Below are positions 558 to 20,200 of a stretch of 64,000 bases of DNA, piece after piece. The stretch spans positions 62,001 to 126,000 of the forward strand of contig NZ_JALPRS010000001.1 in assembly GCF_023630255.1 (NCBI RefSeq). Direction: 5' to 3'. Numbering within the stretch: position 1 is the first letter of the stretch; every line of letters begins with the position of its first letter. The DNA is from Pontibacter deserti (lineage in GTDB: Bacteria > Bacteroidota > Bacteroidia > Cytophagales > Hymenobacteraceae). The notes beneath the pieces were generated by a model that did not search any database, was not told where the DNA came from, and saw nothing but the letters and a program-made list of their open reading frames with translations. Both the position numbers and the translations under genes were made by a program.

Positions 558-2957
558 TTATTGTGTACGGATAGCTTTTACAGGATCGAGCAGGGCAGCT
601 TTAACTGCCTGAAAACTTACCGTGAGCAGCGCAATGGCCATGGCGGCCACTCCGGCAACAGCAAATATCCACCAGCTCAGGTTAGTACGGTAAGCAAAGT
701 CCTGCAACCATTTATCCATTCCGTACCAGGCAATAGGTATGGCCAGCAGTATAGCTATAAGCACCAGCACTGCAAAATCGCGGGAGAGAAGCAAGACTAT
801 ACTTCCGGTAGAAGAGCCCAGCACTTTGCGGATACCGATCTCTTTGGTTCGTTGTTCTGCTGTAAAGGATGCCAGGCCGAATAAACCCAAGCATGCGATA
901 AATATGGTAAGCCCGGCAAAATACCCGAAAACGGTCAGCATCTTTTCTTCGGCCCGGTACTGCTTATCAAAGTGTTCATCCATAAAGAAGTACTCCATTG
1001 GGTGTTTTTGGTCAAATGCCTGCCATTTTGCCTGCACATATTCTATGGTTGCCGGCATATCCTGTGGCTTTAACCGCAACAGCAAGTATCCCGGAGAAGT
1101 CGGTGCCAGGGCCAGTACCAGTGGTTCTACTTTATTGTGCAACGAAGTAACATGAAAATCTTTTACTACCCCGATCACTTTTGCGTCCCAGTCACCTACC
1201 TGTATGCGTTTACCTAGCGGTTCCTTCCAACCCATTTTCCTAACAGCGGCTTCGTTTATAATCAAGCCACCTTTCAGGTCTGTTTTAAAGCTTCGGGAGT
1301 AGTTGCGGCCTTGCTTCACCTCAATACCCATAACATCTATAAACTCATAGTCTACAAACATGACATTCATGGTGTTTTGCAGCGTTTGCCCATTCTTTTC
1401 AGCAAAAACAAGTAATGTGCTCAGAGGCTCAGCCGGAATATTGGCCGTGTTCGACACGCTCTCGATGTTAGGGTTGCTGAGTAGCTCCTGTTTTATACTT
1501 GGCAATTGCTGCACCAGTACCGAATCCCCGACAGGTATGTCGATGGCCAGCACCCGTTCTTTGTTGAAGCCCAGGCTCCGGTTCTTCAGAAACTGCATCT
1601 GGCTAAAAACTACCAGTGTGCCAATGATCATAATAAGCGAAATGGTGAATTGCACCACTACCAGCGTACGGCGTAAGGCAGCGCTACCGCCTTTTGGCAT
1701 TTTATCGGTTTTCAGAACATCAGCCGGCTTAAATCCTGACAAAAAAATGGCCGGATAACTGCCTGCAACGGCGCCAATGAACACAACAATGGCAAAAAGC
1801 GCTAGCAGTACTTCTGTCTGTAAAAAGAAATTGGCGTCGAACTGCTTTCCGGTAAGGTTATTAAAGGTTGGTATCAGGATCTGGGCCAGGGCCAACGCCA
1901 GAACAACAGCTATCAGCGTGATCAGCAGCGACTCGCCGATGAACTGCCCGATGATCTGGGAACGGTAGGCCCCGACAACTTTGCGCAAACCTACTTCTCG
2001 GGCACGTTTTGAGGAGCGTGCTGTAGCCAAGTTCATGTAATTTATACTTGCTATCAGCAACAGAAATACAGCCACAGCTGCAAAAATGTAGAGGTAGTTG
2101 ATATTGCCCGGCGGAGACATATCAGACTCATACACTGTATCGAAATGGATGCTGCCCAGCGGTTGGAGTACAAAGCTCATAACGGCATCCAGTTTGTTTT
2201 CTTTTATCCAGGGGGTTACGTGTGTGGCTGCAAATGTCTTTAGCTTTTCCTGGAAAGGAGCAATCTGAGAGGCATCCCGCAGCAGCACATAGGTATAGCG
2301 GTTCATATTAAACCAGTGGTTCTCATCAGAGAGCTCATCCTGGCGTTTGGTATCGAAGGTGCTGCGTGCTAAGAAAGCGTTTGCCTGTATATGTGAGTGG
2401 CCTTTATCCTTAAACACTCCTGTTACACGGTACGAGTCCCGGCTGAATTTTAATACTTTGCCAATGGCCTCCTCAGCGCCGCCAAAGTATTTTTCTGCCA
2501 TCAGGTTGCTCACTACTATAGTCCGGGGCTCATCCAGGGCTGTGGCGGGGTTACCTGCCAAAAACTCATAATCAAATACTTCAAAGAAGGCGCTGTCGGC
2601 AAAGATCAGGTTATCTTCGTTAAAGCTTTTATTGTTGTACCAGATGGTTTGTTTGCGGGCATTCAGCAGTTGGGTAACATGCTCCAGTTCAGGGTAATCG
2701 CGGAGCAGGTAAGGGGCAAGTATAGGTGCCGATAAAGCAAATCTGTTAGTCTGGCCTTCGTGCTCTATTTCGCCGGCCACACGTACGATGCGGTCTGCTT
2801 TGCTAAAGTGTTTTTCATAGCTTAGTTCATCCTGCACATATAAAAAGATAAGGATACAGGAAGCCACCCCCAGCGCCAGTCCGGCGATGTTGATGGCTGA
2901 GTATACCTTGTTACGGTACAGGTTGCGGAGCGCTACTTTAAAGTAGTTCTGCAGCAT
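558..2957 (-). CDS. MacB/FtsX-family ABC transporter permease
   Basis: This is a 799-residue inner-membrane permease. One helix at about 20-41 is followed by a MacB-type periplasmic domain (about 60-270), three helices of a first FtsX block (about 286-306, 338-362, 383-405), a helix at about 433-453, a second periplasmic domain, and a second FtsX block of three helices (about 675-785). Both blocks carry the FtsX signature just after a helix (REVGLRKVVGA and KEIGIRKVLGS). This duplicated layout is typical of the roughly 800-residue permeases common in Bacteroidota, which work by mechanotransmission rather than as a classical pore. Its start overlaps the end of the upstream ATPase gene by 20 bp, which implies translational coupling. 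The substrate is unknown; efflux or lipoprotein/lipid handling is likely from the HlyD partner. Confidence 0.9.
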   Translation of the reverse strand: MLQNYFKVALRNLYRNKVYSAINIAGLALGVASCILIFLYVQDELSYEKHFSKADRIVRVAGEIEHEGQTNRFALSAPILAPYLLRDYPELEHVTQLLNARKQTIWYNNKSFNEDNLIFADSAFFEVFDYEFLAGNPATALDEPRTIVVSNLMAEKYFGGAEEAIGKVLKFSRDSYRVTGVFKDKGHSHIQANAFLARSTFDTKRQDELSDENHWFNMNRYTYVLLRDASQIAPFQEKLKTFAATHVTPWIKENKLDAVMSFVLQPLGSIHFDTVYESDMSPPGNINYLYIFAAVAVFLLLIASINYMNLATARSSKRAREVGLRKVVGAYRSQIIGQFIGESLLITLIAVVLALALAQILIPTFNNLTGKQFDANFFLQTEVLLALFAIVVFIGAVAGSYPAIFLSGFKPADVLKTDKMPKGGSAALRRTLVVVQFTISLIMIIGTLVVFSQMQFLKNRSLGFNKERVLAIDIPVGDSVLVQQLPSIKQELLSNPNIESVSNTANIPAEPLSTLLVFAEKNGQTLQNTMNVMFVDYEFIDVMGIEVKQGRNYSRSFKTDLKGGLIINEAAVRKMGWKEPLGKRIQVGDWDAKVIGVVKDFHVTSLHNKVEPLVLALAPTSPGYLLLRLKPQDMPATIEYVQAKWQAFDQKHPMEYFFMDEHFDKQYRAEEKMLTVFGYFAGLTIFIACLGLFGLASFTAEQRTKEIGIRKVLGSSTGSIVLLLSRDFAVLVLIAILLAIPIAWYGMDKWLQDFAYRTNLSWWIFAVAGVAAMAIALLTVSFQAVKAALLDPVKAIRTQ

Positions 2958-3654
2958 GTTTGCGTACGTTAAGGTTCTCTGTCACGATTTGTCCGTCGAA
3001 GAGGTTAACTATACGGTGCGCATATTCAGCATCGGAAGGAGAGTGCGTTACCATTACCACAGTTGTGCCAGCCTCGTTCAGTTCGGTTAATAAAGCCATC
3101 ACCTCGCGGCCATGTACCGAGTCCAGGTTACCGGTAGGTTCGTCGGCAAGTATAAGGCTTGGGCTCGAAACCGTAGCACGGGCAATAGCGGCGCGCTGCT
3201 GCTGACCGCCGGATAACTGCTGCGGGAAGTGGTTGCGGCGGTGCGCAATGCCCATACGTTCCATGGCTTCGGTTACGCGTTTCTCGGTTTCGGCTTTGCT
3301 CATGCCCAGGTAAGCCAGTGGCAGGCCAATGTTTTCTTCCACAGTCAACTCATCAATCAGGTTAAAGCTCTGGAATACGAAGCCCAGGTTCTGTTTGCGT
3401 ATTTTAGCACGCTGGCGTTCGCTGGCATGTGTAATATCCTGACCCAGGAATTTGAATGTACCACCAGATGGACTATCCAGTAAGCCAAGTATATTAAGCA
3501 GTGTAGATTTACCACAGCCCGATGGGCCCATGATAGCTACAAACTCGCCTTTAGCAATACGCAGGTCAACTCCTGCAAGTGCAGTAGTTTCTACAGTGTC
3601 AGTTACATATTTTTTCTGCAGCTGCTGTGTTTCGATTAATAGTTCCTTGTTCAT
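2938..3654 (-). CDS. MacB/LolD-type ABC transporter ATPase
   Basis: This 238-residue protein is the ATPase of the adjacent permease. Visible motifs are Walker A GPSGCGKST (residues 43-51), a Q-loop in FVFQSFNL, the signature LSGGQQQR near 147, and Walker B LILADEPTGNLD near 168, followed by the H-loop in VTHSP. The SGG-QQQR form and TGNLD are characteristic of the MacB/LolD/FtsE class. It overlaps the permease gene by 20 bp and lies 144 bp downstream of the HlyD adaptor gene; that gap holds an AT-rich imperfect dyad. It would energise the FtsX-type permease from the cytoplasmic side. Confidence 0.92.
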   Translation of the reverse strand: MNKELLIETQQLQKKYVTDTVETTALAGVDLRIAKGEFVAIMGPSGCGKSTLLNILGLLDSPSGGTFKFLGQDITHASERQRAKIRKQNLGFVFQSFNLIDELTVEENIGLPLAYLGMSKAETEKRVTEAMERMGIAHRRNHFPQQLSGGQQQRAAIARATVSSPSLILADEPTGNLDSVHGREVMALLTELNEAGTTVVMVTHSPSDAEYAHRIVNLFDGQIVTENLNVRKHAAELL

Positions 3655-3713: not shown

Positions 3714-3802
3714 TTAATTGTTTATTGTTAGTTGTTGATTGTTAGCTCTTGTTATGTAAGTATAGTTTTTAAGCAATTATCAATCAGCAATCAACTATCT
3801 AT
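3714..3802. repeat. AT-rich imperfect inverted repeat between adaptor and ATPase genes
   Basis: Words such as GTTGTTGATTGTTAG on the left reappear inverted as ATCAATCAGCAATCAAC on the right, with a TA-rich centre. Similar AT-rich dyads occur in several other spacers of the window (near 36.85, 54.3, 58.3 and 60.7 kb). No gene is visible here. It could attenuate transcription within the operon. Confidence 0.45.
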
Positions 3803-5049
3803 TTCAATTCCAGCCGGTCTATGTCGCCGTAGCTGTCGTAGGAGGATAGCACTACTTTTTCGCCGGGTTTCAGGCCATCAATCACTTCGTAATAGTTTGG
3901 GTTCTGGCGGCCCAGTTTTATACTTCGCTTTTCTGCAAAGTCCCCTGATTTATCTACTACAAACACCCAGTTACCGCCAGTGCTTTGGTAAAAGCCACCG
4001 CGTGGTAAAAGTATGGCTTTGGCACCATCGTTTAAGTTCAGCTTAAGTTGCAGCGTCTGGCCACGGCGTATACCTTCCGGGGTGCCATCTGCAAATTCCA
4101 TATCTACCTGAAAGGTGTTGTTCTGCACTTCGGGGAACACTTTAACTACTTTCACTTTATAGGTCTTTCCGTTAAAATCGAAGCTGCCATCCAGTCCCGG
4201 ATACACTTTGGAAATATAATGCTCGTCAATGTTTGCTTTTACTTTGTAGCCGTTCAGGTCATCTACCTGGCCAATGTTCTCGCCGGCTGCTTTGCTTTCG
4301 CCAACTTCTGCTTTTAAGGTAGATAACTGGCCTGTAAAAGGAGCCACTACATATAGGTTGTTTAAGGTATTGCGGGCCATATTAATATTAGCCTCCATGC
4401 GACGGATAGATTCATCGAGCTGGCGCAGTCGGTCATTCATTAATTGGGCATCCTGCTTTACTGAGCGATCTGCCAGGTCTTTGCGGCGTTTTAAGTATAA
4501 GTAATTGTCTTTAGAAGTTTCATATTCTTCTTTTGAGATCGCTCCTTCTGCTATCAGCATTTTGTTGCGGGTATAGGTGCGCTCCGCAGTTGTCATGTTA
4601 TACTCAATCTCGGCCAGCTCATTCATTTTTCGGATCTGGTCCTGCTTCATGGTAATCTCTGAGTTCTGGCGCTCGTTCATCAGGTCATAGAGCTGCGTTT
4701 CGCGCGTCATAAAGTCGATCTGGAGCGTAGTGTTAGAGAGCTTAAGTATGGTGTCGCCTTTCTGCACCATTCGGCCATCATCGGTATAAATCTTTTCTAC
4801 ACGGCCACCTTCTGTTATATCCAGGAAAAATGTTTTAAGCGGATCGACAGAGCCATCTACTGCTATAAACTCCTGAAAAGTACCTTCCTGCACATTACCC
4901 ATTGTAACACGCTGTGCTTCTACATTTAATTTAGATGTGCGCTCTGCAAAAAGCAGGTTGTAGATAACTACCACGAGTGCTAATGTAACAGCAGCTATAA
5001 TGGCTATTTTCTTAGGTGTGTACTTCTTTTTCTCAATAACGCGATCCAT
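3799..5049 (-). CDS. HlyD/RND-type periplasmic adaptor protein
   Basis: This 416-residue membrane-fusion protein has one N-terminal membrane helix (about 14-33), then a barrel-sandwich half starting near 60, a coiled-coil hairpin (about 105-225, charge-rich heptads), the second lipoyl half (KAEVGESKAAGENIG region, about 245-260) and a beta-barrel/membrane-proximal part to the end. The length and order match HlyD_D23/MacA-like adaptors. It is the first gene of the leftward operon and would link the MacB-like pump to the envelope. Its start lies 27 bp downstream of the inferred start of transcription of a sigma54-like promoter, and it diverges from the NtrC-type regulator gene, which probably controls it. 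Confidence 0.9.
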   Translation of the reverse strand: MDRVIEKKKYTPKKIAIIAAVTLALVVVIYNLLFAERTSKLNVEAQRVTMGNVQEGTFQEFIAVDGSVDPLKTFFLDITEGGRVEKIYTDDGRMVQKGDTILKLSNTTLQIDFMTRETQLYDLMNERQNSEITMKQDQIRKMNELAEIEYNMTTAERTYTRNKMLIAEGAISKEEYETSKDNYLYLKRRKDLADRSVKQDAQLMNDRLRQLDESIRRMEANINMARNTLNNLYVVAPFTGQLSTLKAEVGESKAAGENIGQVDDLNGYKVKANIDEHYISKVYPGLDGSFDFNGKTYKVKVVKVFPEVQNNTFQVDMEFADGTPEGIRRGQTLQLKLNLNDGAKAILLPRGGFYQSTGGNWVFVVDKSGDFAEKRSIKLGRQNPNYYEVIDGLKPGEKVVLSSYDSYGDIDRLELK

Positions 5050-5086
5050 AGTAAAGGTAATTGTAGGTCTTGTGTTTTTCTGTTTG

Positions 5087-5101
5087 TCAATATATGTGCC
5101 A
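5087..5101 (-). promoter_or_regulatory. Candidate sigma54-type promoter of the efflux operon
   Basis: Read on the minus strand, TGGCACATATATTGAC fits the -24/-12 pattern TGGCACG-N4-TTGC with the correct spacing. The -24 part is near perfect, while the -12 GC is replaced by GA. The start codon of the HlyD gene at 5049 would follow a leader of about 27 nt. The divergent NtrC-type activator gene supports this reading. Confidence 0.5.
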
Positions 5102-5163
5102 TTTTATATAACATCCTGTTTTACAGTATTTTATAGTGGTTGATAGTCTTGAGGATATATATA

Positions 5164-5272
5164 GACTGTCCGCAAACGTACAGTGGACTGTCTGCAAGCG
5201 GACACTCCTGAAATGCAGATATGGGGAACAACCTGAAACAGGGCGCAGACAACAGCTATTGCATGGCAGACA
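5164..5272. promoter_or_regulatory. Cluster of five TGTCYGC half-sites, likely activator binding region
   Basis: Half-sites TGTCCGC (5168-5174), TGTCTGC (5189-5195), GCGGACA (5198-5204), GCAGACA (5245-5251) and GCAGACA (5266-5272) lie between the divergent operons. The second and third form a dyad with 2 bp between arms and one mismatch. The same-orientation pairs are each exactly 21 bp apart, about two helical turns. This is how upstream activating sequences of NtrC-family regulators look; binding by the adjacent regulator is inferred. Confidence 0.55.
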
Positions 5273-5279
5273 GTTTGAT
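5264..5279 (+). promoter_or_regulatory. Candidate sigma54-type promoter of the regulator operon
   Basis: TGGCAGACAGTTTGAT keeps the -24 TGGCA and a TTG at the right spacing for -12, again with A in place of the invariant C. Start of transcription would fall near 5291, about 48 nt before the ATG at 5339. The -24 element overlaps the last TGTCYGC half-site, which would allow autoregulation. Confidence 0.4.
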
Positions 5280-5338
5280 TTTTTGCATAAAAAAGACTTA
5301 CATTAGTACATTCAATAATAAAAATAATGCCTTGATGT

Positions 5339-6730
5339 ATGAGTAAAATTGCCTGCCAGATTTTAATTGTTGACGATGAAGAAGATATTCTGACGGCCGG
5401 CAGGCTGCTGCTGAAACAGCATTTTACGTATGTTAAAACCACTTCAGACCCTTACCAGATACCGGCTATACTTACAGAGCAGCCCATAGATGTGGTATTG
5501 CTGGATATGAACTATAGCGCTGGAGCTACCTCAAGCAAAGAAGGCCTGCACTGGCTGAAGCAGATAAAACAGCTTGACCCCAGTGTTACGGTTATACTTA
5601 TGACCGCCTACGGCGACATAGAACTGGCGGTACGGGCGCTAAAAGAAGGTGCATCCGATTTTGTACTGAAACCCTGGAGAAACGAAAAACTTGTAGCTAT
5701 ACTTAAAACAGCCTGCCAGCATCGTCAGGAGCAACCTCTACCTTCAGTTGCAAAATCATCTCATTATAAAACCTTCCATTATGGGGAGTTTATAGGTACT
5801 TCGCCGGTTATGCAGCGGGTATACCAGACCATAGAGAAAGTTGCCGCTACCGACGCAAATGTGCTTATACTTGGTGAGAACGGAACAGGCAAGGAAGTAG
5901 CTGCCAGAGCCCTACACCAGCGATCAAAAAGAGCAAATCATGCCTTCGAAAAAGTGGATCTGGGTGCTGTAAGCGAAACATTGTTTGAAAGCGAGTTGTT
6001 TGGCCATGCCAAAGGAGCCTTTACCGATGCCAAAGAAGACCGGATAGGCAGAATAGAAGCAGCTAATGGCGGTACATTGTTTCTGGATGAAATCGGTAAC
6101 TTATCGTTGGCGCTCCAGGCAAAGCTACTGTCAGTGCTGCAAAACCGCCAGGTGATCAGGCTGGGTACTAACAAGCCACGGCCCATTGATATCCGGTTGA
6201 TTTGCGCTACCAATATGCCGCTTTACGACATGGTAAAACAGGGTACCTTCCGCCAGGATCTGCTTTACCGCATTAATACCGTTGAGATACAATTACCGCC
6301 ACTGCGCGAGCGACGCGAAGATATAAAACTACTCGCCGAGCATTTTCTGGAAATATACAGTCAGAAGTATAACCGCCCTGAACTAGGTATAAGCAAAGAA
6401 ACGCTTCGTCGTCTGTCAGAATATCGCTGGCCGGGTAACATTCGTGAACTGGACCATGCGCTGGAGCGTGCTGTTATACTTTGCGATGGCAACGAACTGC
6501 AAGCTGATGACTTTTATTTTGCACCGGGCGTAGATGGCATTCAGGTTTCCGATAAAGTACAGCATAGTGGGCAGGGGATATCAGAAGGCGATCATACGCT
6601 GGAAGAGCTTGAGAAAATGATGGTGCAGAAAGTGCTTGTAAAACACTCCGGCAACATTACGCACGCTGCTAAAGAACTAGGTATAACCCGCACTGCACTT
6701 TATCGCCGCATCGAGAAACATGGTCTTTAA
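5339..6730 (+). CDS. NtrC-family sigma54-dependent response regulator
   Basis: This 463-residue regulator has a receiver domain (about 7-125; acidic pocket VDDEED, phospho-acceptor D56, conserved K111), an AAA+ sigma54-activation domain (about 150-375; Walker A GENGTGKE at 179-186, Walker B GGTLFLDE at 244-251) and a C-terminal Fis-type helix-turn-helix (NITHAAKELGITRTALYRR). The sigma54-contact loop reads GAFTDA (226-231) rather than GAFTGA, a variant I associate with Bacteroidota members of this family. Its stop overlaps the kinase start by 11 bp, so the two form a two-component pair. It should activate the divergent HlyD/ABC operon through the half-site cluster between them. Confidence 0.92.
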   Translation: MSKIACQILIVDDEEDILTAGRLLLKQHFTYVKTTSDPYQIPAILTEQPIDVVLLDMNYSAGATSSKEGLHWLKQIKQLDPSVTVILMTAYGDIELAVRALKEGASDFVLKPWRNEKLVAILKTACQHRQEQPLPSVAKSSHYKTFHYGEFIGTSPVMQRVYQTIEKVAATDANVLILGENGTGKEVAARALHQRSKRANHAFEKVDLGAVSETLFESELFGHAKGAFTDAKEDRIGRIEAANGGTLFLDEIGNLSLALQAKLLSVLQNRQVIRLGTNKPRPIDIRLICATNMPLYDMVKQGTFRQDLLYRINTVEIQLPPLRERREDIKLLAEHFLEIYSQKYNRPELGISKETLRRLSEYRWPGNIRELDHALERAVILCDGNELQADDFYFAPGVDGIQVSDKVQHSGQGISEGDHTLEELEKMMVQKVLVKHSGNITHAAKELGITRTALYRRIEKHGL

Positions 6731-8081
6731 TCATTTCAGGGTCAGGTTGCTAGTACAGGTTTGCCTGGCTATGCTCAGTATGGTGGCCCTGATTGTGGTA
6801 TTGTTCCGCACCGATTGGTACATTACTGCTTTCTGCCTGGGGGTGCTGCTTACGTTGCAGTTATATGGCCTGATACACTTTGTAGAACGCACCAATCGCG
6901 ACATCACCAGCTTTCTGGAATCTATCCGGCAATCTGATTTTACACAGCGCTTTCCCGAAAAAGGGGGTAATCCGACCTTCAGCCATCTGTACCATTCTTT
7001 TAACGAGATATCTGATTCCTTCCTGAAGATAAAAGCTGAAAAGCAGGCGCATTATTTATACCTGCAAGCCATCGTAGAACACATAGGCATTGGTATACTT
7101 TCTTTTGATGAGAGCGGAAATGTACTGCTGCTAAACCACGTGGCTAAAGAGCAACTCAGCCTGCCTCACCTGACAAATATCAAAGCGCTAGACAGGGTAA
7201 GCAAGCAACTTCTGGATGTATTGCAGCGGATTACGAACAACGAGAAAGCACTGGTTACGCTACATCATAATCACGATCAGTTGCTGCTATCAGTACATGC
7301 CACGGTGCTGGTATCGCAGGGGAAAAGTATAAAGATCATATCGCTGCATAACATACAGGCCGAACTGGAAGAGCAGGAAGTGCAGACCTGGCAGAAAATG
7401 ATACGCGTGCTGACACATGAAATAATGAACTCGGTAACGCCGGTTATCTCGCTTACATCTACAGTTACAGGCATACTGGAAGAAGAAATAAAAGCAAAAC
7501 AGGCAGGCTGTGAGTTTAGTGACGAAGCCCTGGAAGATATTCAGGATGGCTTGAAAACAATAGAGCGCCGCGCTACAGGTATGCTGCACTTTGTGAAGAA
7601 TTATCGCAGACTGATGCGCCTGCCATTGCCCGAACTACAGGACGTAAGTATAAATGAACTGCTTCGCGATGTGCACACCCTGATGAAGCCAGATTTTGAG
7701 AAAGAACATGTAGCCCTCGCTGTATACTTGCCAACCTCTGATATAACCCTGCAGGCAGACCCCGAACAACTGGAACAGGTACTGATAAATTTACTGAAAA
7801 ATGCCATGGAAGCCTGCCGGCAAAGTAAAGCTCCGCAGGTAGAAGTGGTTGCGTATGCTGATGATAACAACAAGTATAAAGTTCGGATAGAGGTGCGTGA
7901 TAACGGCTCAGGCATCCCGGATGATGTACTCGACAGGTTGTTTATACCTTTCTACACTACAAAAAGACAAGGGTCCGGTATTGGCCTGAGTTTGTCTAAA
8001 CAGATCATGCGCCAGCACGGCGGCAGTATAAGAGTGAATAGCAAAGCCGGCGGACCAACGGTGTTTACGTTGCAGTTGTAG
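6720..8081 (+). CDS. Sensor histidine kinase, partner of the NtrC-type regulator
   Basis: This 453-residue kinase has two N-terminal helices (about 9-30 and 35-55) with almost no periplasmic loop, so it probably senses a signal in or near the membrane. A linker and PAS-like region (about 110-215) follow. The HisKA box is LTHEIMNS with H233, and the ATPase domain shows the N-box NLLKNAMEA, G1 DNGSGIP and G2 GSGIGLSL. The architecture resembles the NtrY-like kinases usually paired with sigma54 regulators. It is translationally coupled to the regulator by an 11-bp overlap. Confidence 0.92.
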   Translation: MVFNHFRVRLLVQVCLAMLSMVALIVVLFRTDWYITAFCLGVLLTLQLYGLIHFVERTNRDITSFLESIRQSDFTQRFPEKGGNPTFSHLYHSFNEISDSFLKIKAEKQAHYLYLQAIVEHIGIGILSFDESGNVLLLNHVAKEQLSLPHLTNIKALDRVSKQLLDVLQRITNNEKALVTLHHNHDQLLLSVHATVLVSQGKSIKIISLHNIQAELEEQEVQTWQKMIRVLTHEIMNSVTPVISLTSTVTGILEEEIKAKQAGCEFSDEALEDIQDGLKTIERRATGMLHFVKNYRRLMRLPLPELQDVSINELLRDVHTLMKPDFEKEHVALAVYLPTSDITLQADPEQLEQVLINLLKNAMEACRQSKAPQVEVVAYADDNNKYKVRIEVRDNGSGIPDDVLDRLFIPFYTTKRQGSGIGLSLSKQIMRQHGGSIRVNSKAGGPTVFTLQL

Positions 8082-15039: not shown

Positions 15040-17040
15040 CTACACCAGCTCTGCAGTGTGTAACTTGGGAGTAGCGACTGTAGTTTGCACAAGCGCAGGT
15101 AAAGTAAATTTAAAGGTGCTGCCCTCGCCTGGGGAGCTTTCAACCCATATCTTGCCGTTGTTGCACTCTATGAAATCCTTGCATAACGCTAGTCCAAGTC
15201 CGCTTCCTTTTTCTTTTGCTGTGCCTAGCGTAGTAAGGCTACGAAGCCCAAACAGACGTGCCTGATTTTCGTCGCTTATACCAGTACCTGTATCGCGCAC
15301 CGCTACCTGCAGCATGTTATTTTCTACTAACTCTGTTTCTATGGTTATAATATCATCCTGATTACTGAATTTTATGGCATTCGCGATGAGGTTACGAAGC
15401 ACAAGCATAACCATATCTGTATCCGCGAGGGCACATAATTCCGGATCTGCGAGGTTGTGCAGGGTTATACCTTTACGCTGTGCCGGCAGCTCCAGCACTT
15501 TTATACTTTCCTCGGTTAATTTCTTAATACTGATGTTGTTGGTTTTAACACAAGTGCCCTGCATCTGCGACCTGGCCCAGAGAAGTAGATTATCTACTAA
15601 CCAGAGTGTGTTCTCCTGTTGGTTTTCCAGCTGTTTGGCAAAGTATACAAACTTATCTTCTGTTACCTTGCCCATTGCCAGCACCTGCAGCAACGATTTC
15701 AGTGAGAGCAGCGGGCCGCGTAAGTCATGGGCAACTATAGAGAAGAGCTTGTCTTTTAACTGGTTTAATTTTTCCAGTTCTTCTTTCTGGTCTTTAAGTA
15801 TAAGCGCCTGGGCTGCCAGTTCGTTTTTCTGTTGCTTAATGTTTTCGCTATACCGGCTCACTTTTCTATTCTTTACGTTAAGCTGTTTGTTCATGCGCTT
15901 CATACGCTGGTTGCCCCGGTATATCAGCACAACTACAGTTAATGCAAGAGCCAGTAGCCCGATTGTGGTATACTGAATAATGGTTTTATGTTCGATCTCC
16001 TGTTCGTGCAGCTCGTGTTCGGCTAGTAGTTTCAGGTTCTCTTTTTCTTTCTGAGCAGTCTCATATTTTACCTGTAAGCTGGTGGTCTGCCGGGTAATTT
16101 CCTCGTTGTTAATGCTATCGCTGTAAGCTACAAATTGGTTAAGGTAGCGGTAAGCCTGCTCATAATTTCCTGTCTGGCTGTAAATTGTATGAAGCACTTC
16201 AGCTGATATTTTTGCTTCTGCCTTCGAATGTAATTTCTCAGCCAGGTTTAAGCTTTTAAGTCCGAATGCAATGGCTTTTTCAGAATTTTTTAGCCCCTGA
16301 TATGTTTCAGCGAGCCCACGGAAAGCGTAGATCCGGTCGTGCAGATTATTTGTTTCTATGGTTAACGCTAAACCACGTTGCAGGTAGTGCAGTGCCTGAT
16401 CATACTGACCAAGTTTCTGATAGGCATCTCCAATATTTATAAGGCTTATAACGGTACCTTTTAGGTCTTTTGCTTTTTCTTTCAGCGGAAGCGCCCTCAG
16501 GAAGTATGTTAAAGCGGTATCAAAGTTTTTCTGGCGCAGGTGTACAATACCTATATTATTTAAAGCACGGCTAATAGATAATGGATCATGAATTTTGTTA
16601 GCTAAATGAAGTGCCTTATTATAATAAATAAGCGCTTTTTTATAGTTGTGCTGGTTGTTGTAAATGTTGCCAATATTATTGTAGCTCGCGCTCAGGCCGG
16701 CTGTATCTGCTAACACCTCGCGCAGTTTTATGGCTTTGTAGTAATAGTCTGCTGCAGTATTGTAGTCTCCTAAATTGTAGAAGCCGGCTCCTGTATTATT
16801 ATACGCCTGAGCGAGCAGTGGTTTATCATTCAGTTTACTGGCAATCTGAATAGCTTCTTTGCCATAGGCTACAGACTGTTTTGGGTTGGAGTACCATTGG
16901 GCTTTGCTAAGTTCGTTTAATTCTTCGGCCTTATGGTGTTGTGCCACCTTCTGATGACTTGTCGGAACGTGTGCATTAGCAGCCTTTGAGTCGGGCACTA
17001 TAATGAGCAGGAAAATTCGGACAAGTAGAAGTGTAATCAT
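15040..17040 (-). CDS. TPR-containing membrane sensor histidine kinase
   Basis: This 666-residue protein starts with a hydrophobic signal or anchor segment (1-20). About seven tetratricopeptide repeats follow (about 40-320, with repeated NNIGNIY/NNIGIVH-like helices) in the periplasm, then a membrane helix (about 353-373), a coiled coil (about 380-435), HisKA with the box FSIVAHDLRGP, and a HATPase_c domain (NLIANAIKFS, DTGTGIS, GSGLGLAL). This architecture is common in Bacteroidota, where the TPR region is thought to read a protein or envelope signal. No response regulator is adjacent, so it is an orphan kinase here. An in-frame response-regulator domain is absent. Confidence 0.9.
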   Translation of the reverse strand: MITLLLVRIFLLIIVPDSKAANAHVPTSHQKVAQHHKAEELNELSKAQWYSNPKQSVAYGKEAIQIASKLNDKPLLAQAYNNTGAGFYNLGDYNTAADYYYKAIKLREVLADTAGLSASYNNIGNIYNNQHNYKKALIYYNKALHLANKIHDPLSISRALNNIGIVHLRQKNFDTALTYFLRALPLKEKAKDLKGTVISLINIGDAYQKLGQYDQALHYLQRGLALTIETNNLHDRIYAFRGLAETYQGLKNSEKAIAFGLKSLNLAEKLHSKAEAKISAEVLHTIYSQTGNYEQAYRYLNQFVAYSDSINNEEITRQTTSLQVKYETAQKEKENLKLLAEHELHEQEIEHKTIIQYTTIGLLALALTVVVLIYRGNQRMKRMNKQLNVKNRKVSRYSENIKQQKNELAAQALILKDQKEELEKLNQLKDKLFSIVAHDLRGPLLSLKSLLQVLAMGKVTEDKFVYFAKQLENQQENTLWLVDNLLLWARSQMQGTCVKTNNISIKKLTEESIKVLELPAQRKGITLHNLADPELCALADTDMVMLVLRNLIANAIKFSNQDDIITIETELVENNMLQVAVRDTGTGISDENQARLFGLRSLTTLGTAKEKGSGLGLALCKDFIECNNGKIWVESSPGEGSTFKFTLPALVQTTVATPKLHTAELV

Positions 17041-17194
17041 CAGGAGTAACGTTGTAAAGTTTGTTTTGTGTCGGAAGTATAGGCGGCTTTAACTTAGCAA
17101 ATATAATATTTTAGCAATACAAAAGCATTGCTATATTGTTGTTTTAATGTACTTTAAAAAAGTAGTTTTAGGATAATTTGAAGTATAAAAAGAA

Positions 17195-17222
17195 AAGCCC
17201 TTCACGCAGGTGAAGGGCTTTT
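17195..17222 (-). terminator. Terminator of the PD40-amidohydrolase gene
   Basis: An 11-bp perfect stem AAGCCCTTCAC / GTGAAGGGCTT with a 4-nt loop lies just beyond the stop codon at 17242 of the leftward gene, followed on the minus strand by TTTTCTTTTT. Confidence 0.85.
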
Positions 17223-17241
17223 ACAATTTGATAACTAAAGA

Positions 17242-20200
17242 TTATTGCTTTATACCTGGTACGCCTACCGGGGTAGCGCTGTGCCAGTCAAAATCAGGGG
17301 CTTTGCGAGCAGTAGGTGCCAGTTCATCCATTGTAGAGGCATCGAACAGGCGGCCATTACGCATCACATACTTTATAGTATTCGTGTTACGGATGTTCTC
17401 CAGTGGGTTGCTGTCCATAATTACAAGGTCAGCCAGTTTACCAGTTTCGATCGATCCGATATCACCATCTAAACCAAGCGATTTGGCACCAAGTATAGTT
17501 GCAACTTTAAGTGCATCGTGGTTGCTCATGCCACCAGACTGCACCGACCACAGCTCCCAATGGTAACCAAGACCCTGCAACTGACCATGTGAACCTACAC
17601 CAGCCAAACCACCTTCTTTAACTAAATTGTTAACAAACTCGGCATGGCGAGAGAAGATGTGCTCATCTTTCGTGAACCAACCTGGTCTGCGGCGTGCTTT
17701 TGAGTCCAGTTCTGCTTTAGGTGTAAAGTAGTTTAGCTTTTTATCACCTACTACATCCTCTGTTGCATAGTAATAGTTTTCAGCCCACGGCCCACCGTAA
17801 GACACAAGCAGGGTAGGAGTATAAGCCATTTGTGTTTTGGCTACAAAGTCAACTACATCCTTATAAAGCGGGTAGATCGGGAATGAGTGCTCGTGACCTG
17901 GGTAACCGTCTATGGCTTGCGTCATGTTCAGTTTAAAGTCAAGACCGCCTTCAGTAGTTGGTAATAAGCCCTGCTCTTTAGCAGCCATAATTACCCACTG
18001 ACGATGCTGGCGGTTACCTACCAAGTACATTTTTATAGTTTTGGTATTGTAGTACTCGGAATATTGGCGCAATACACTTTTTGCGTGGTCTAAGCTCTTA
18101 ATATTATAAGCCCAGAAACCAACACCAGGACCAGTAGAGTAAACTCTTGGGCCTACCATTTTACCGGCATCCACTAAGTCACCATAAGTAAGTACGTCTG
18201 TAGTTCCGGTCTGTGGGTCGCGGGTAGTGGTTACACCGTAAGCCAGGTTAGCAGCATACATCCAAACTTGGTTGGTGTGTACGCCCCAGCGCGGCCACAT
18301 GTGCGAGTGCGTATCTATAAAACCAGGAGTAATAGTTTTACCTTTTACATCTACTACTTTAGCACCTTGTGGTACAGTTAATGAACCAGATTTGCCAACA
18401 GCTTTGATACGGTTGTTCTCTACCAGTATGTCGCCGTTCTCGATAACTTCATTACCGTTCATAGTAACGATGCGCGCACCTTGTAACAATACTATACCTT
18501 GCGGGATATCACGTGGAACCTGAATTGCAATCTTAGTTTCTTTCGGCTTATAGTTTTCGATTACGATAGCTTCTTTTTCAGCTTTGGCGCTATCAGTCTT
18601 AGCTTCGGTACCGTTTGCTTTAGCTTCTTTTTTCTTTTCAGCATCAAGGTCCATCTGCTCTTTCTTCGCTCTGGCCTCATCCAGGTTATAAGCGAAGAAA
18701 CCATTACCAATAGACCAGTAAACAGTTTTACCATCAGCAGACCAGCTCGGGAACTGACCACCAATTTCGGTTAACTTCCAGCTTGGGAACTGCGACGTAG
18801 CTACATCAGCTACAGATATAGTTGGTGTTTCGCCACCTACTACCGGAATAGTAACTACATAGATCTCATTGTTGATCAGCGCTAACGCTTTATCGCCAAC
18901 CGGAGCTTTGATAAGTGTGGTAGCAGTAGATGGCTGTTGCTGTGGCTCACGCTCGTTCTGGTGCAGCATGTGGCACATTTCTTCCATCACACCATCGCCG
19001 TTTACAGTACCAAACGTAGTTATACCTTTTACTTTTAGGTATGATTTTTTGTCGGTACCATCCCAACGAATCGATATCAAACCATCAGCATAGCTGTAAA
19101 GGTAAATGCGGTCATCGCCTTTTACAAAGTGTGGGTTAGCGCCAATGTTTGCATTGGTTACAAACGTAGTTTTACCACCTTTCGCCGGAATCCAGTTCAA
19201 CGTCTGGCGAGAATCGAAAGCACCCGGGCCTGGCTCCTCTTTATAAGATTGTGCCGAACCTTTTGCGAACACGATGCGCTCACCATTTGGTGTCCAAACC
19301 GGCTCCTGGAACACAGCGTTTTCCTGCGTTAGCTTTACAGGTTTGCCTTTGCCATTCGCGTTAGTTTTATAGATAGCTCCACCGTTCTTTTCGTGCCAGG
19401 TTACATAAGCTATAGTTTTACCATCCGGAGACCATGCTGGTTGCGCCTGTGTAAAGTCCTGATCTGTGATGCGTTTTGGTGTACCATTCGGATAGTCCAT
19501 GACATAGAGTCTGTCCAGGGCAGTGAAAGCAACACGCTTGCCATCCGGCGACACAGCTGCATCACGCAACTGCGTTACTGTCATCATCTTGTCGTCTTTG
19601 ATCGGATATTTAAAGTCCAGTTGCGGGCCAACAGCGATCTCAGTCTTAACTTCAAAAGGTATTTCTTTGGCAGGGCCACCAGCTACCGGAATGCTATAGA
19701 TCTTACCACCATAAGAGGCTATAAGGTTTTTACTATCCGGAGTAAATGACATGGCAGGCAACACACCAAGCGGAGCGATAGACTCCTGTTCGTCGCGCTG
19801 TACAGGGTAAGCCAGCCATTTTTCAGTACCGGTCTGCAGGTTTTGTGCTACTAAGCCTGTATGGTTGTTATGGCGCGTACCATATACCAGCCAGTTGCCA
19901 TCCGGAGAAAGAGTTGGAGTGAAGGCAGACCCATAACGTGCTGTTTTACCATCTATCTCTCCGGTTTCGCGGTCAAAAGTAGCTAATTGGTACTGTGGCA
20001 ACTGGGCGTTATAGTTCCAGGCACCGTTGCGCTGTGAGAACCAGATGTATCGGCTGTCTTTACCGAACGCCGGCTCAACAGTTTTCATGGTTTCTGGTTT
20101 GTTAATCAGTTGTACACCAGTGCCGCCATCTTTATGATAAAGGTGCAACTTCAGGTTGCGGCGTCCGCGCGAAGCCACCAGGTATTCACCATCCGGTGTC

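Follow-up and report, generated by a model that had tools for sequence, protein, structure and literature searches.

The spacer between a MacB-type exporter operon and a divergently oriented two-component system in Pontibacter deserti carries a conserved sigma-54 enhancer-promoter in which the enhancer is phase-locked to the promoter. This arrangement is real and ordinary in kind, and what is new is a second locus with mini-protein genes. We consider it likely that these elements form a sigma-54 enhancer-promoter module, the second locus being very likely activated by the same regulator. The window, i.e. the whole stretch of DNA that was analysed, comprises 64,000 nucleotides of a genome of 4.15 Mb in 7 contigs, and the named relatives whose regulator loci show 78–84% protein identity all belong to Pontibacter. 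The spacer (5050–5338) lies between the exporter operon on the minus strand and the regulator and kinase genes on the plus strand:

558..2957, minus strand: ADOP/DarB-like permease of the MacB_PCD/FtsX type, at the end of the exporter operon (Pfam MacB_PCD, 4.5e-39; FtsX, 1.3e-25)
2938..3654, minus strand: ABC ATPase of the exporter (Pfam ABC_tran, 3.3e-36)
3799..5049, minus strand: membrane fusion protein of the HlyD/MacA type, encoded at the start of the operon (Pfam HlyD_3)
5339..6730, plus strand: NtrC-family response regulator with receiver, AAA+ (GAFTDA loop) and Fis-type HTH domains (Pfam)
6720..8081, plus strand: histidine kinase whose two TM helices are separated by about 8 residues; no periplasmic sensor domain

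A MacB_PCD/FtsX permease, an ATPase and an HlyD adaptor, as identified by their Pfam domains, make up a tripartite MacB-type exporter, which bears out the MacB-like efflux locus proposed in an earlier reading of the sequence alone (sequence-only reading). The NCBIfam scores of the permease (558–2957) for ADOP and DarB stayed under the cut-off. Since the curated cut-offs were not reached by the permease with the DarB model (150 bits near full length; cut-off 700) or by the HlyD protein (3799–5049) with the DarC model (200 bits near full length; cut-off 450), an assignment as the darobactin exporter DarBCD is not supported.

The genome contains a single copy of rpoN (PF04552, 3.9e-57). The sigma-54 contact loop of the window's regulator is GAFTDA, not GAFTGA, and GAFTDA, GSFTDA or GAYTDA was present in every regulator of the set in which the motif was located, 9 of the 21 group-C sequences being unmatched by the search expression. 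According to the accessible parts of the reports on Desulfovibrio vulgaris, GAFTDA is also found in DVU2106, an activator of divergent sigma-54 operons with IHF (PMC4641369, PMC3897727), for which it is listed as compatible with activation (PMC4641369); in a pull-down with Dickeya VfmH, which likewise carries GAFTDA, sigma-54 was not recovered (PMC10714721). For the kinase, the loop between the TM helices measures 4–8 residues in the window and in relatives with two helices called (from hydropathy only). Its predicted architecture, with two TM helices, a very short loop and no periplasmic domain, is that of intramembrane-sensing kinases.

Within and near the interval 5087–5279 of the spacer, the following elements were annotated:

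5087..5101, minus strand: predicted sigma-54 promoter of hlyD, TGGCAC-N5-TTGA, sequence TGGCACATATATTGA (pattern search)
5121..5133, plus strand: IHF-like element between promoter and enhancer; the window copy deviates from WATCAR-N4-TTR at 2 positions
5167..5182, plus strand: enhancer dyad 1, TGTCCG-CAAA-CGTACA, nearer hlyD (repeat search, orthologue alignment)
5189..5204, plus strand: enhancer dyad 2, TGTCTG-CAAG-CGGACA, 22 bp from dyad 1 (repeat search, orthologue alignment)
5245..5251, minus strand: TGTCTGC heptamer, unconserved (exact in 1/21 orthologues), probably no site
5264..5278, plus strand: right-hand sigma-54-like element, TGGCAG-N5-TTGA, sequence TGGCAGACAGTTTGA, containing the heptamer 5266–5272
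5299..5306, plus strand: candidate −7 element TACATTAG (TAnnTTTG type) of a primary-sigma promoter of the regulator gene

The two outward-facing TGGCA-N-TTGA elements described in the sequence-only reading were both found and have sigma-54 spacing; as a claim of divergent sigma-54 promoters, this held on the hlyD side and failed on the regulator side, where TGGCA is retained in 2/21 Pontibacter orthologues. At the hlyD promoter, the −24 GG and the −12 TTG are present in 21/21 orthologues. With a sigma-54 matrix trained on the left promoters of other groups and 200 Markov-resampled sequences as control, it outscored all 200 resampled sequences in 26/26 distinct loci (P<1/200).

Orthologues also keep the enhancer-like array that separates the exporter from the NtrC-type regulator, in a form that differs from the first description. 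All five TGTCYGC sites claimed for the interval are present (5167 and 5189 on the plus strand; 5198, 5245 and 5266 on the minus strand), compared with 0.04 expected per 193 bp from window-wide shuffles (Poisson P about 9e-10, uncorrected for the motif choice). The two pairs said to be exactly 21 bp apart reduce to one, 5245 to 5266, the distance from 5167 to 5189 being 22 bp. A repeat search gave two imperfect palindromes (5164–5182 and 5186–5204) 22 bp apart. For the alignment, the spacers of the window and of 20 orthologues of the same genus were used (21 sequences). Both dyads are kept in it, and the heptamers at 5245 and 5266, the latter inside the right-hand TGGCA element, are exact in 1/21 and 2/21 sequences, respectively; with two of its five heptamers unconserved, the half-site array with 21-bp spacing was rejected. 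The unit in Pontibacter is a tandem 16-bp dyad, TGTNCG-N4-CGNACA, with the consensus half-site TGTNCG and not TGTCYGC. Across the 21 sequences, TGT is invariant in all four half-sites and CG nearly so in three, and the mean column identity is 0.80 for the dyads, 0.89 for the hlyD promoter and 0.59 for the remaining spacer.

The distance from the dyads to the hlyD promoter is 64–65 bp in 26/26 Pontibacter loci. Tandem upstream dyads phase-locked to the promoter, by which an NtrC-type enhancer is recognised, are thereby present on the sequence level. Between promoter and enhancer, exact copies of WATCAR-N4-TTR occur at a fixed place in 8/26 hlyD loci on the plus and 12/26 on the minus strand (expected 0.1 and 0.3), and the element may be a binding place for IHF or HU. 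Also, an inverted repeat resembling GTATAGC-N6-GCTATG is found between the IHF-like element and the dyads in the window (5140–5165) and in many hlyD-locus orthologues.

The gene order permease-ATPase-hlyD/regulator-kinase is also found in Cyclobacteriaceae, Fulvivirgaceae, Saprospirales and others. In 24 such relatives, the hlyD promoter is near-invariant (TTGGCACNCTTGTTGGCA-like), and the dyads are CGTTCA-N4-TGAACG and TGTCCG-N4-CGGACA, 20 bp apart, a pattern with only four exact matches in 194 genomes of the order. The dyad edge lies 52–54 bp from the promoter in 22/24 of these Cyclobacteriaceae-type loci, with single cases at 42 and 64 bp. Steps of 11 bp in enhancer distance are predicted for a looped enhancer that stays on a fixed helical face, and natural ones are on display here. 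In the regulator tree, the Pontibacter clade and the Cyclobacteriaceae-type relatives are not resolved as sisters. Their loci have the module in common and are candidate orthologues, with the sister grouping unsupported by the tree.

The switch had also been called self-contained, and this does not apply, as the same enhancer-promoter arrangement recurs at a second, unlinked locus. Searching for the tandem dyad with at most one mismatch gave matches in 34/41 Pontibacter genomes, often two in each, and the reversed control pattern gave 0. In the window's genome, the second tandem dyad is located on contig C3 at 17226–17263 (L200, 5227–5264). It precedes two or three tandem genes (L200:4600–5264, C3 about 16600–17264) whose products are 51–60 aa long (roughly 54 aa), have a hydrophobic stretch at the N terminus and share a conserved core, PNLLPxVE. 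In all 42 cases with both elements found, a TGGCAY-N6-TG promoter, looked for 40–95 bp from the dyads, is 63–66 bp away. Exact WATCAR-N4-TTR copies are present at 12/42 and 19/42 of the small-protein loci (plus and minus strand, respectively; expected 0.2). The mini-proteins have no match in Pfam or NCBIfam. The family occurs in 50/50 Pontibacter genomes and is absent at E 1e-5 from 226 other Cytophagales genomes, in a sample that included five Pontibacter genomes, all positive. The conserved C-terminal PNLLPxVEIVA stretch presumably resembles a TonB-box-type sequence.

A nearly identical switch in front of the mini-protein genes points to joint induction of exporter and mini-proteins, and judging from these matches one regulator very likely co-activates both. 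Alternatively, the mini-protein genes could be functionally separate from the exporter and have only the enhancer type in common with it, a real possibility that we nevertheless lean against. It draws on the distribution of the genes: a close copy of the regulator (E 1e-200) is present in 32/50 and missing in 18/50 Pontibacter genomes, all of which have the small proteins, so that strict co-occurrence of mini-proteins and regulator is false. On the other side, the dyad, the 22-bp spacing, the distance of 63–66 bp and the IHF-like element all match, and across the genus it is at these two loci that the pattern recurs, although co-regulation alone is no proof that one acts on the other. Beyond co-activation, it is conceivable but rather improbable that exporter and mini-proteins constitute one system, in which the genus-specific 54-aa proteins, either as secreted peptides with a signalling or antibacterial role or as accessories of the exporter, would be handled by a DarBCD-like MacB machine and co-induced by a GAFTDA activator whose kinase senses transporter or cargo in the membrane. 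In one genome without a close regulator copy (G026:C45, L217), a tandem dyad and a sigma-54 promoter stand before a different secreted-type protein.

Three more regulators of the same family are encoded in the genome, each divergently from a MacB/FtsX permease gene; in one relative the divergent gene codes for an ABC ATPase instead. Their tandem dyads are TGTCCR-N4-YGGACA with 21 bp for paralogue A, TGTGCG-N4-CGCACA with 21 bp for paralogue B, and TGTACGCTTTCGATACA-like with 34 bp for paralogue C. Exact WATCAR-N4-TTR is present in 13/17 paralogue-B loci (expected 0.1); between promoter and dyads of the paralogue-A and Cyclobacteriaceae-type loci none was found. None of the 50 genomes searched has more than one A or more than one B tandem, and each lies next to the regulator of its own group. 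Second sites for A and B were not found beyond their own loci, bar one A-pattern match (1 mismatch), which is the small-protein site of G006 with 21-bp spacing. This indicates that each regulator tends to adjoin its sites. For paralogue C, an extra site is sometimes present about 3–6 kb from the first. In groups A and B (L002, L003, L049–L088), a conserved TGGCAYAAT-like element lies on the regulator side and could be another sigma-54 promoter whose −12 part is weak.

For the promoter of the regulator gene itself, the right-hand element gave a matrix P of about 0.1 in the window and was insignificant in nearly all other loci, the commonest variant of its TGGCA being TAGC. A TAnnTT[TA][AG] element precedes the regulator gene in 20/26 orthologues (expected 5.8), mostly 37–42 nt from the start codon, and TAnnTTTG is the −7 element of the primary sigma factor in Bacteroidetes (PMC7366714). 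With TGGCA lost, the matrix insignificant and TAnnTT[TA][AG] kept, the promoter is probably of the primary-sigma type. The conclusion is weaker here than for hlyD, since CGGTAY-N5-TTG is retained at this place in relatives from outside the genus. As a genus-wide conserved feature, the right-hand sigma-54 promoter was rejected; for the window species it is still a rival. Two divergent sigma-54 promoters would then use the central enhancer in common, and TGGCAG-N5-TTGA would drive regulator and kinase in a positive autoregulation like that of zraP-zraSR. The canonical spacing in the window is in favour of this, as are the conserved CGGTAY-N5-TTG of the Cyclobacteriaceae-type loci, by which divergent sigma-54 control may be ancestral, and a TGGCAY element that paralogues A and B conserve on their regulator side. 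We think it unlikely, given that TAnnTTTR is kept instead of the right-hand TGGCA and that the CGGTAY-N5-TTG of Cyclobacteriaceae also fails the sigma-54 matrix. At most, a few species would use the right-hand site as an accessory promoter for autoregulation.

The dyads are also found without the regulator. In G013, G061 and G002 (L292, L293, L294), dyads and promoter are kept and no regulator or kinase match is present beside hlyD; the neighbour of hlyD in G013 is a thioredoxin gene, found on the far side of the kinase gene in the window, and the same gene lies about 3 kb further away in G002. In G009 and G017 (L295, L296), hlyD and the ATPase gene are relocated beside a B-type permease with the dyads kept; their hlyD dyad begins with TGTGCG, as the B half-site does, which may reflect a rewiring. 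The small-protein promoter often persists in regulator-less genomes, and in many of these its dyads do so too, partly degraded. As dyads outlast the regulator, either it was lost recently or the sites can be used by another activator, in a comparison of regulator loss and dyad retention that is confounded by phylogeny. Another sigma-54 activator might therefore be the main binder of the dyads, the adjacent response regulator being incidental or redundant. For this speaks, besides the retained dyads, a 36%-identical activator that most of the inspected genomes encode about 7–12 kb away from the small-protein genes (L303–L315, L320, L321). Around the cluster of the window's genome and of its closest relatives, which have intact dyads, no copy of this activator turned up; the A and B dyads adjoin their own regulators, and a TGTCCG dyad stands beside the regulator in Cyclobacteriaceae-type loci too, so that we regard such a main binder as quite unlikely. 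As the sole dyad binder, the 36%-identical activator is ruled out for the window's clade, in which it was not found.

We therefore retain control by the adjacent two-component system as the working model. An envelope or peptide signal would be perceived by the membrane kinase (6720–8081), which would phosphorylate the response regulator (5339–6730). Regulator dimers would bind the two tandem TGTNCG-N4-CGNACA dyads, oligomerise and, aided by an IHF/HU-type bend, loop to RNA polymerase-sigma54 at the −24/−12 promoter 64–65 bp off, and this contact would switch on hlyD-ABC-MacB. The gene of the regulator would probably be read from the primary-sigma promoter, and the same regulator would very likely activate the unlinked unit of two or three secreted or membrane-anchored proteins of about 54 aa.

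The architecture is nearest to the DVU2106/orp and ZraR/zraP systems. Bce regulators, by comparison, are of the OmpR type and are not known to be sigma-54 activators. Like the Pontibacter system, BceAB-RS of Firmicutes has a kinase that lacks an extracytoplasmic sensor domain beside an ABC transporter whose extracytoplasmic loop is large; in Pontibacter, the regulator is of the NtrC type and an HlyD adaptor belongs to the exporter, and transporter sensing is an analogy only (PMC3023708, PMC10314905). With DVU2106/orp of D. vulgaris, as far as described in the accessible parts of the reports, the likeness extends to a GAFTDA activator, palindromic activator sites, IHF sites between these and −24/−12, divergent transcription and an activator gene on a sigma-70 promoter. 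In contrast, its targets concern cell division, its activator is a single-component protein and not a response regulator, and a second unlinked small-protein locus is not described for it in these parts (PMC3897727, PMC4641369). In zraP-zraSR, an NtrC-family regulator and a kinase are divergent from an envelope-stress target, and the regulon includes a small periplasmic accessory protein; both sides of it are sigma-54 dependent, whereas the Pontibacter regulator side is without a conserved sigma-54 promoter, and its target is one chaperone, whereas that in Pontibacter is an exporter, with unlinked small proteins that have no family match (PMC4987338).

A search of the open literature, with subscription literature outside its scope, gave no publication on the exporter locus or the small proteins. 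The promoter logic is that of the textbook; the case supplies a candidate activator-enhancer pair in a phylum for which few characterised sigma-54 activators were found. The unlinked mini-protein target, lacking Pfam and NCBIfam matches, is a candidate partner for sigma-54-controlled MacB exporters of Bacteroidota, and the question what these exporters do becomes testable. In its accessible part, a survey from 2025 predicts sigma-54 promoters before COG0577 (FtsX/MacB) permeases in Bacteroidia, i.e. before the same transporter family in the same phylum, and calls its evidence for this link the first; activator, enhancer, phasing or small proteins are not given in that part (PMC12316311). The activator census of this survey, as described there, kept GAFTGA sequences only and would leave out the GAFTDA family (PMC12316311), which makes the GAFTDA loop relevant to surveys requiring exact GAFTGA.
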